Assembly: GCA_902626385.1 (NCBI GenBank)
Contig: CACOEZ010000001.1
Coordinates: 1-64,000 of the forward strand
From: an uncultured SAR86 cluster bacterium
GTDB taxonomy: Bacteria; Pseudomonadota; Gammaproteobacteria; Magnimaribacterales; D2472
Direction: 5' to 3'
Length of the DNA: 64,000 bases
In this document: positions 18,394 to 20,653 of the stretch, piece by piece
Layout: every line of letters starts with the position of its first letter
How positions within the stretch are numbered: the stretch's first letter is position 1
Made by a program: the position numbers and the translations under genes
The notes under the pieces: generated by a model
Database searches by the model: none
What the model saw: the letters and a program-made list of their open reading frames with translations, nothing else
Told to the model about the DNA's origin: nothing

Positions 18394-18885
18394 ATGCTGA
18401 ATCTCATTAAAGAAGTTTATCAAAACTATTTTGAAATAGCCTCAACTATAACAGCTGCTATGATAATTATAGTCGCCTATTTACTTGATAAGGCCTTTTT
18501 TTTGCAGGCTTGCGCCATGTGCATATTAACTAGATACATTTTTGGTTTGGTTTTGCTCTCATCAATTTCAACTTATTTCGTTAAAAATAAATTTGGATAT
18601 GTACTAATTGCCATATCCTCTGTTATCGGTATTTTTGTAACTTCAAAACAAATCTACATTCAGAATCTTGCATTAGAAGATCTCGCTCAGCTTTCTGGTT
18701 GTGGCATGCCTTTCCATACCATGGTTGACTATTTTGGTATTCTTGAAGCTATATCAAGAACTCTTCAAGGTGGGCCAAGTTGTGCTGAGGATGGCATGCG
18801 ATTTATTTTCAACTTTGCTGAATGGGCTTTCATTTTCTTTTTAATCTATCTATTTTTATCGATTACAAAACTCTTAAAAAGCTAA
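18394..18885 (+). CDS. dsbB: Disulfide bond formation protein B
   Basis: 163 aa; four TM segments, QACAMCILTRY, periplasmic CGMPF...GGPSC. Confidence 0.85.
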   Translation: MLNLIKEVYQNYFEIASTITAAMIIIVAYLLDKAFFLQACAMCILTRYIFGLVLLSSISTYFVKNKFGYVLIAISSVIGIFVTSKQIYIQNLALEDLAQLSGCGMPFHTMVDYFGILEAISRTLQGGPSCAEDGMRFIFNFAEWAFIFFLIYLFLSITKLLKS

Positions 18886-18961
18886 TTTTTAATTATTTTT
18901 GTAGTATAACTACACAAATAATCTTTCAAAAATCCTTTAAATAAAGCTTTTTTTTAAATCG

Positions 18962-18990
18962 TTGACTTTTTTTTATCTATATATTTTACT
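18962..18990 (+). promoter_or_regulatory. Candidate sigma70 promoter of pckA
   Basis: TTGACT (18962-18967), 17-nt spacer, TTTACT (18985-18990). Confidence 0.4.
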
Positions 18991-19016
18991 GCACTACATA
19001 GTAATTCGAATTATTG

Positions 19017-19099
19017 CTAACAAAGTTAATATTATAGGTACATAATTATCACCTCTACATATATAATTATTCCCCCCAAGTACCTATAATATTTGTTAG
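19017..19099 (+). promoter_or_regulatory. Long bulged hairpin in the pckA leader
   Basis: CTAACAAAgttaaTATTATAGGTAC (19017-19041) pairs with GTACCTATAATATTTGTTAG (19080-19099): 20 bp with a 5-nt bulge. An inner ATAATTAT/ATAATTAT pair (19042-19049 / 19063-19070) is possible. Ends 6 nt before the pckA ATG. Confidence 0.75.
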
Positions 19100-19105
19100 T
19101 ACATT

Positions 19106-20653
19106 ATGAACAACCATATACCAATTGCCGCTGCGCTTGAACTAACTAATGAAGAGCTAATTTCTGCTGCTGTTGAGAATGGTGAGGGCGTTATTGCATC
19201 TAATGGAGCATTGTCAACTGTAACAGGTGAAAGAACAGGAAGAAGTCCTAATGATAGATATATTGTAAAAGAACCCGGGACCGACGATTTAATAGATTGG
19301 GGCGAAGTTAACAAGCCTTTTGAAGAAGACAAATTTAATTCTCTTTGGGAAAAAGTTGAAGGCTATCTTGCTGAAAAAGACAGATATATTTCTCATGTTC
19401 ATGTTGGGTCGCATCCTGACCATTATTTACCCGTAAAAGTTACAACAGAAACAGCGTGGCATTCTTTTTTTGCAAGGTTAATATTTGTATGCGTAGAAAA
19501 ATATAATCCAATTAACAAACAAGAGTGGCAAATTTTATCTGCTGCTAATTATGAGTGCTCACCTGATGAAGATGGTACAAATTCAGAGAGTTGTGTCATC
19601 ATTAATTTTGCAAAAAGAAAAGTAATTATAGCTGGTATGAAATATGCTGGAGAAATGAAAAAATCCATGTTTTCTGTTCAAAACTTTTTGCTTCCTGAGC
19701 AAGACGTGCTTCCAATGCACTGCTCTGCAAATGTAAATAAGCATGGAGATGTGGCATTATTTTTTGGTCTTTCGGGTACTGGCAAGACAACGCTTTCTGC
19801 AGATCCTAAATGCTCTTTAATTGGAGATGATGAGCATGGATGGAGTCCGGGGTCTGTTTTTAATTTTGAAGGCGGTTGTTATGCAAAAACTATTGATCTG
19901 AGTAAAGAAAATGAACCTGTTATATTTAATGCCATTAAACATGGTAGTGTGATTGAAAATGTTTTTTTAGAAAATAATGTGCCTGATTATTCAAATACAT
20001 CTTTGTCAGAAAACGGAAGATGTTGTTACCCCAGATCACACATTGAGAATGCAGTTGAGGAAAATTCCGCTGGTGAACCAAAAACAGTAATATTCTTGAC
20101 ATGCGATTTAACTGGCTTGATTCCACCTGTTTCAATATTATCAAAAGAGGCTGCTGCATATCATTTTTTAAGTGGTTATACAGCAAAAGTAGGTTCAACA
20201 GAAATGGGCTCAGCATCCGATATAGCGTCAACCTTTTCGACCTGTTTTGGTGCACCCTTTTTCCCAAGACCAGCAAATATATATGCTGATTTGTTAATGA
20301 AAAGAGTTGGAGACTTTGGGTCAAAAGTATTTTTAGTAAACACTGGCTGGACTGGGGGTCCGTATGGTGTTGGCTCTCGATTCAAAATACCAACTACAAG
20401 AAGAATAGTTAATGCTATACAAGATGGCGAACTTAATGATGTTGAAACTCAAAAATTGCCTGGGCTCAATCTTGAGGTACCTCTAGAGATTGATGGAGTT
20501 GATCCTAAGCTACTAAACCCAATTGAAACATGGAATGATAAAGATGAATATGCAAGGTATTTAAAAGATCTGATTTCTAAGTTTCAAGAAAATTTTAAAA
20601 AATTCGACGTCAGTCCTGAGATAGTGTCTGCTGGACCTGGGTTTGATGATTAA
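19106..20653 (+). CDS. pckA: Phosphoenolpyruvate carboxykinase (ATP)
   Basis: 515 aa; [48 protein letters not shown]. Confidence 0.97.

Follow-up and report, generated by a model that had tools for sequence, protein, structure and literature searches.

The window analysed here, a 64,000-nucleotide stretch from an uncultured SAR86 cluster bacterium, carries at 19106..20653 of the forward strand the pckA gene for ATP-dependent phosphoenolpyruvate carboxykinase (NCBIfam NF006823, 881 bits, and TIGR00224, 590.8 bits, both above cut-off). The gene is preceded by an inverted repeat (19017..19099, forward strand) that ends 6 nt before the ATG at 19106 and would form a leader hairpin in the RNA transcribed from an upstream promoter, P1. 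The coordinates and sequence of the repeat and its distance to the start codon agree with an earlier note on this DNA, apart from a slight shift in the register of the bulge (AGTTA instead of gttaa). Folding of the isolated 83-nt stretch yields a 7-bp and a 13-bp helix, separated by a 5-nt bulge in the 5' strand, then an 8-bp inner stem and a 13-nt loop, and reproduces the second pair of 8-nt arms and the C-rich 3' bulge that had been described. The minimum free energy is −19.3 kcal/mol, compared with −7.3 ± 2.1 kcal/mol for 200 dinucleotide shuffles of the same stretch (z = −5.66), none of which folded as well. The fold is common to 27 species, and in many sister species the helix is longer by 3–4 pairs, towards or into the AUG. 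One fold dominates in the leader, and neither a competing fold nor a terminator or expression platform could be made out.

All parts of the hairpin are given on the forward strand. The bulge AGTTA (19024..19028) is 5 nt long in all carriers and free in sequence. It is followed by the 13-nt 5' arm of the second helix together with the 8-nt inner stem ATAATTAT (19029..19049, invariant in 20 of 21 columns), the apical loop CWCCTCWACATAT (19050..19062) with an invariant CCTC, and the 9-nt bulge TCCCCCCAA on the 3' side (19071..19079), in which CCCCAA is invariant among carriers and all nine positions are conserved to at least 92%. In the 3' arm GTACCTATAATATTTGTTAG (19080..19099) the sole variable position, 19099, is compensated at 19017. 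Each of the two inner-stem arms (19042-19049 and 19063-19070) is complementary to itself (ATAATTAT). With a spacing of 21 bp, they might in addition serve as DNA sites on the same face of the helix. The resemblance of the loop to an anti-Shine-Dalgarno sequence (AUCACCUC, identical to the usual 16S tail) was dismissed as coincidence, as the two letters before CCUC vary. The absence of a Shine-Dalgarno sequence before the pckA ATG, pointed out earlier, is real but not distinctive, because only 17 of the 50 genes in the window carry an SD-like motif and a start of this kind is ordinary here. An A/U-rich helix over the start region would suit an RNA thermometer, one of the functions first suggested for the element, but in the folding model the 3' arm stays paired above 50 °C (more than 97% at 4–60 °C), well beyond the temperatures of the sea, which leaves this explanation with practically no probability.

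The promoter P1 (TTGACT-N17-TTTACT, 18962..18990, forward strand) had been proposed in the earlier note and is well supported by comparison, its TTGAC being conserved in the genus and in the family. Upstream lies an operator, TGTAGTATAACTACA (18900..18914, no strand assigned), which is conserved before pckA across the family and has the same sequence as the sites of Pseudomonas RccR, a protein that binds TGTAGT/ACTACA sites before pckA, aceA and pntAA (PMC5489143). An ACTACA half-site (18993..18998, forward strand) coincides with the inferred P1 start (+1 at about 18996-18998), and its CTACA is invariant in all aligned carriers. The half-site takes the same place relative to the promoter before pntA and aceA. 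The pckA operator lies 62 bp upstream of P1, and this geometry recurs before pckA in most of the family; across genus and family TTGAC is found 61–62 (or 50–52) bp from the operator and 32–33 bp before CTACA. The 15-bp pattern TGTAGTNNNACTACA occurs at four genome sites in total, counting those with 0–1 mismatch, the others preceding pntA, the isocitrate lyase gene (aceA) and an unnamed ORF. TTGAC and CTACA are separated by 32 bp at the pntA and isocitrate lyase sites (operator distances 62 and 50) and by 33 bp at the fourth (operator distance 61). The genome also encodes an RpiR-family regulator (Pfam HTH_6, 74.7 bits), whose best NCBIfam match is HexR, below the cut-off of that model; together, the operator pattern and the regulator point to RccR/HexR-type control at P1.

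These sites outline what may be a small SAR86 regulon of the RccR/HexR type, in which TGTAGTNNNACTACA is combined with a second ACTACA at the promoter start (18900-18998 in the window; L165, L166 and L167 elsewhere). The two classes of distance from the operator to the −35 box, 50–52 and 61–62 bp, differ by about one helical turn, and the pckA operator lies about 94 bp from the half-site at the start; such spacings suggest DNA looping. The fourth site (L167:1686-3015) precedes a 123-aa ORF without a Pfam match and a large ORF that resembles a lipoprotein and contains a poly-Gly stretch; one would not expect a regulator of central carbon metabolism to act there.

The hairpin is confined to one genus. 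pckA is present in 31 of the 34 examined species of this SAR86 genus, and the full hairpin stands directly before it in 27 of these 31. In other genera pckA is likewise preceded by P1, but the hairpin is missing. A covariance-model search of 204 genomes of the SAR86 order matched 28, all from this genus and all at pckA, the 28th being a weak, degraded copy in species G003; each genome thus holds one copy at a constant position (27 full, one partial). Three sister species (G007, G010 and G015) have a diverged version that keeps the AUAGGU/ACCUAU pairing, not the inner stem, and forms just 7–8 pairs, folding no better than shuffles. Among 85,462 GTDB species, 24 contain an exact copy of the 3' part, one in each, including SAR86A, and all of these species are labelled SAR86 or marine Gammaproteobacteria. 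Within its own genome the element has only short chance matches (14–34 bp, 82–100% identity), and no copy was present in the phage and plasmid records searched. A dispersed repeat or MITE, against which the earlier note had cautioned, is therefore rejected. A search of the same genome for a G-rich trans partner gave the element itself as the sole exact match.

Conservation of the element is extreme. Across 24 distinct hairpin sequences, TATTATAGGTACATAATTAT, ATATATAATTAT and CCCCAAGTACCTATAATATTTGTTA are invariant, in runs of 20, 12 and 25 nt; the two inner arms, CCUC in the loop and the greater part of the C-rich bulge do not vary. For comparison, the fourfold-degenerate sites of pckA in these species have a mean identity of 43%, with none of 116 columns invariant, and the coding sequence contains no invariant run of 9 nt. 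The flanking spacers vary freely (mean majority letter 0.63 to 0.72), as does the 5-nt bulge (0.54). The distance from the promoter CTACA to ATAGGT is 40 bp in 27 of 27 carriers, though the intervening sequence varies, and the distance from hairpin to ATG varies over 4 bp. Judged by this comparison, the hairpin is under very strong selection. Two possible partners of its unpaired nucleotides in the coding sequence were rejected. The UUGGGG that might pair over a long range with the C bulge contains a GGGG that is present in every carrier but is forced by Trp-Gly (TGG GGN), occurs also in non-carriers and is preceded by a varying base (GAT/GAC/GAA/GAG); the GAGG that could pair with CCUC early in the gene is not conserved.

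Changes in the outer helix bear on whether the repeat acts as RNA or as DNA. Standard pairs fill 96.4% of the pair cells in the 24 distinct sequences, compared with 26–52% in slid structures, and the covariation score is 0.061, compared with 0.016–0.026. Double changes convert pair 9/93 from C-G to A-U and pair 7/95 from U-A to A-U, pair 8/94 takes G-U, A-U and G-C, and more positions take G facing U; the shuffle control for pairs with double changes is weak, with 113 of 500 shuffles as high. In a parsimony count on the pckA tree, purines of the 5' arm facing U changed between A and G 13 times and to T once, whereas unpaired A became T in 31 cases, G in 25 and C in 4 (one event, in G006, was added by eye from the alignment, the row of that species being absent from the scripted count). 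The binomial P is about 2e-4, with p = 30/69 for purine-purine changes, and about 0.015 without the most variable column. Exchange of A and G facing U gives G-U in the sense RNA and A-C in the antisense RNA. As pairing is kept solely in the sense RNA, these changes give moderate support to the view that the hairpin functions as RNA, within the pckA transcript. An antisense-strand RNA is disfavoured by the direction of these wobble changes, and the model scores the opposite strand far lower.

The earlier expectation of covariation in relatives thus holds for the outer helix, with its compensatory and wobble changes, but not for the inner helices, which do not vary. The inner 21 pairs show one change, A-U to G-U, and because they never covary they are uninformative on structure. 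Their invariance must have another cause: a downstream promoter, sequence-specific binding or a DNA function. A to G opposite U would be allowed in the inner helix yet is nearly absent there, so that an additional sequence requirement is likely.

This rigidity also bears on the idea of a metabolite or ion riboswitch whose aptamer would be made of the C-rich loop and bulge. Such a sensor would account for conserved unpaired nucleotides between helices before a metabolic gene, but it would be expected to show an expression platform or a second fold and helices that covary, and it would have to serve one gene in one genus. A cmscan of 18800-19300 against Rfam at E up to 10 returned only two chance snoRNA matches, in the coding region, and no riboswitch, in accordance with the first reading that no known class is recognisable. 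A riboswitch is on balance very unlikely. The name given to the element in the earlier note, a candidate new cis-regulatory RNA, is a fair one for a single-copy structure downstream of P1, absent from Rfam, paired in the sense strand and strongly selected.

What had been missed is that the 3' arm and the inner 3' stem coincide with an apparently older, promoter-like pair of boxes, TATAAT-N17-TATAAT, which we call putative promoter P2. Its upstream box, TATAAT (19062..19067, forward strand), belongs to a TATAAW-N17-TATAAT/TATAGT pattern that the alignment shows for g1, g4 and g5, three genera, as well as for hairpin-less species; its −10-like TATAAT (19085..19090, forward strand) lies within the 3' arm. 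In an alignment anchored on the last TATAAT-like box before the pckA start, TATAAW, a 17-bp gap and TATAAT/TATAGT are common to this genus, g4 and part of g5, and in genus g7 we read TAGACA upstream of TATAAT with a 16-bp gap, by our own interpretation of the alignment. An exact TATAAT occurs within 45 nt of the pckA start in 10 of 15 genera (first genome of each), compared with a mean of 2.6 and a maximum of 8 genera in 300 shuffles. The upstream box in this genus is not TTGACA-like, and its 17-bp gap to TATAAT is fixed. Since the relatives in other genera that share the boxes lack the hairpin, the 3' half of the hairpin looks like an inherited, older downstream promoter, and the 5' arm with the CCTC loop looks like a genus-specific addition. 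Because this older pair of boxes, a feature of the DNA, occupies the 3' arm and inner 3' stem, part of the conservation of the hairpin is probably promoter conservation.

Short-leader transcripts from putative P2 are plausible, because in this genome starts without a Shine-Dalgarno sequence are common and several starts have a TATAAT nearby. A transcription start inside or downstream of the hairpin, which the earlier note had counted against its reading, may hold for a fraction of pckA mRNA. TATAAT was also observed 7–9 nt before SD-less starts at 18394 and 24588 in the window and at a chorismate synthase-like ORF (L038:1567), and near-leaderless transcription may be common in this genus.

A natural deletion separates the two halves. 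Species G003 is nested among hairpin carriers in the pckA tree and has lost (at L045) the operator, P1 and the 5' arm of the hairpin; its CCTC loop and C-run have decayed, and both P2 boxes and their 17-bp gap are retained. This pattern, a single case with one ambiguous base, is as would be expected if the P1 transcript depends on arm, loop and C-run while the boxes belong to P2, and a species without P1 offers a natural comparison.

The same data can be weighed for an element that works at the DNA level only, in which the repeat and its loops would be binding sites and the P2 core, with the RNA hairpin as a by-product; two regulator dimers could, for example, sit on the ATAATTAT boxes, whose spacing of 21 bp is close to two turns of the helix. 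Conservation of the P2 boxes across genera that have no hairpin, inner arms that are invariant instead of covarying and the fixed 40-bp spacing between P1 and the hairpin in a varying sequence (27 of 27 carriers) would fit this explanation. Compensation in the outer helix that keeps G-U pairs of the sense strand would not, and the one-sided 9-nt insertion, a plain bulge in RNA, breaks the dyad symmetry of DNA. The box spacing is also 23 in one species (G019), which has 2 extra loop bases, and G003 has kept P2 while its 5' arm, loop and C-run have degenerated. A purely DNA-level role is unlikely.

The reading we prefer, with a probability we put close to, though short of, an even chance, is that of a cis-regulatory leader hairpin that closes the start region of the P1 pckA message and overlaps the older putative promoter P2. 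P1, with its RccR/HexR-type operator, would yield a long message containing the hairpin. In the folded message the 20 nt upstream of the AUG would be paired, in several species almost into the AUG, and loading of the ribosome would be prevented. The unpaired CCUC of the loop and CCCCCC of the bulge, unchanged for as long as the genus has existed, would be where a trans factor binds and either stabilises the hairpin or opens it; a protein is preferred as this factor because the sequence of the helix is frozen as well, with a metabolite, a small RNA or RNase III as alternatives. We infer that short transcripts from P2 would start within or after the 3' arm and so escape the hairpin. If P2 function constrains the 3' arm, and the need to pair with that arm constrains the 5' arm, the absence of covariation in the inner helix is partly accounted for. 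That the same 30 bp would act both as a downstream promoter in DNA and as a closing arm in RNA, with promoter choice setting the translatability of pckA mRNA, is a more specific proposal and an unlikely one.

The hairpin could instead govern processing or stability, as an RNase III site (or one that guards against RNase E) at which the P1 message is trimmed or protected. A run of 21 base pairs, almost unbroken and with an internal loop on one side, makes a plausible RNase III target; cleavage would yield the same short 5' end as P2, as the 3' product would presumably begin near the P2 start. RNase III, however, depends on structure more than on sequence, and invariant arms and loops would be unexpected, which makes this explanation quite unlikely.

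Leader hairpins that gate translation and are bound by a trans factor are known, for example in the autoregulatory leaders of ribosomal-protein genes. The leader hairpin proposed here for the P1 message is like them a single structured RNA that would close the start of one gene in one clade and that has conserved unpaired nucleotides; it differs in that the gene is pckA, the binder is only proposed, the inner helices are invariant and the 3' arm doubles as promoter-like sequence. In tandem-promoter arrangements of the LUTI type, the long isoform is poorly translated. The arrangement at pckA is similar, an upstream promoter giving a long leader and a downstream promoter a short one, except that both pckA promoters are predicted from sequence. 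Pseudomonas RccR, also an RpiR-family regulator, has TGTAGT/ACTACA operators before pckA, pntAA and aceA, but its control is transcriptional (PMC5489143); SAR86 adds a leader hairpin, which is absent from the other RccR-type targets and from other genera. Like the orphan riboswitch candidates and motifs of comparative-genomics screens (PMC2864571, PMC8632094, PMC11109978), the element was found by conservation upstream of a metabolic gene; unlike them, it shows slight covariation in a narrow clade. The main texts of Weinberg 2010 (PMC2864571) and of the 26- and 50-genome screens (PMC8632094 and PMC11109978) do not mention SAR86 or pck, and our literature search returned nothing relevant on riboswitches, leaderless mRNAs or conserved intergenic elements of SAR86 or on pckA leader RNAs. 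The hairpin is thus a candidate for an undescribed, genus-specific leader RNA that overlaps a promoter, and it may well be a previously undescribed translation switch for the long pckA message.

SAR86 bacteria are among the most abundant uncultured bacteria of the surface ocean, and their small genomes are thought to hold little regulation. That no part of the pckA coding sequence is as conserved as this 80-nt element points to strongly selected control on the entry into gluconeogenesis. The element also suggests that promoter sequence may come to form an arm of an RNA structure; such reuse would partly explain why both arms are frozen and do not covary. If the dual use of these base pairs as promoter and closing arm is true, pckA would have a bacterial switch based on a long undecoded leader, with an ultraconserved C-rich site read by a factor.
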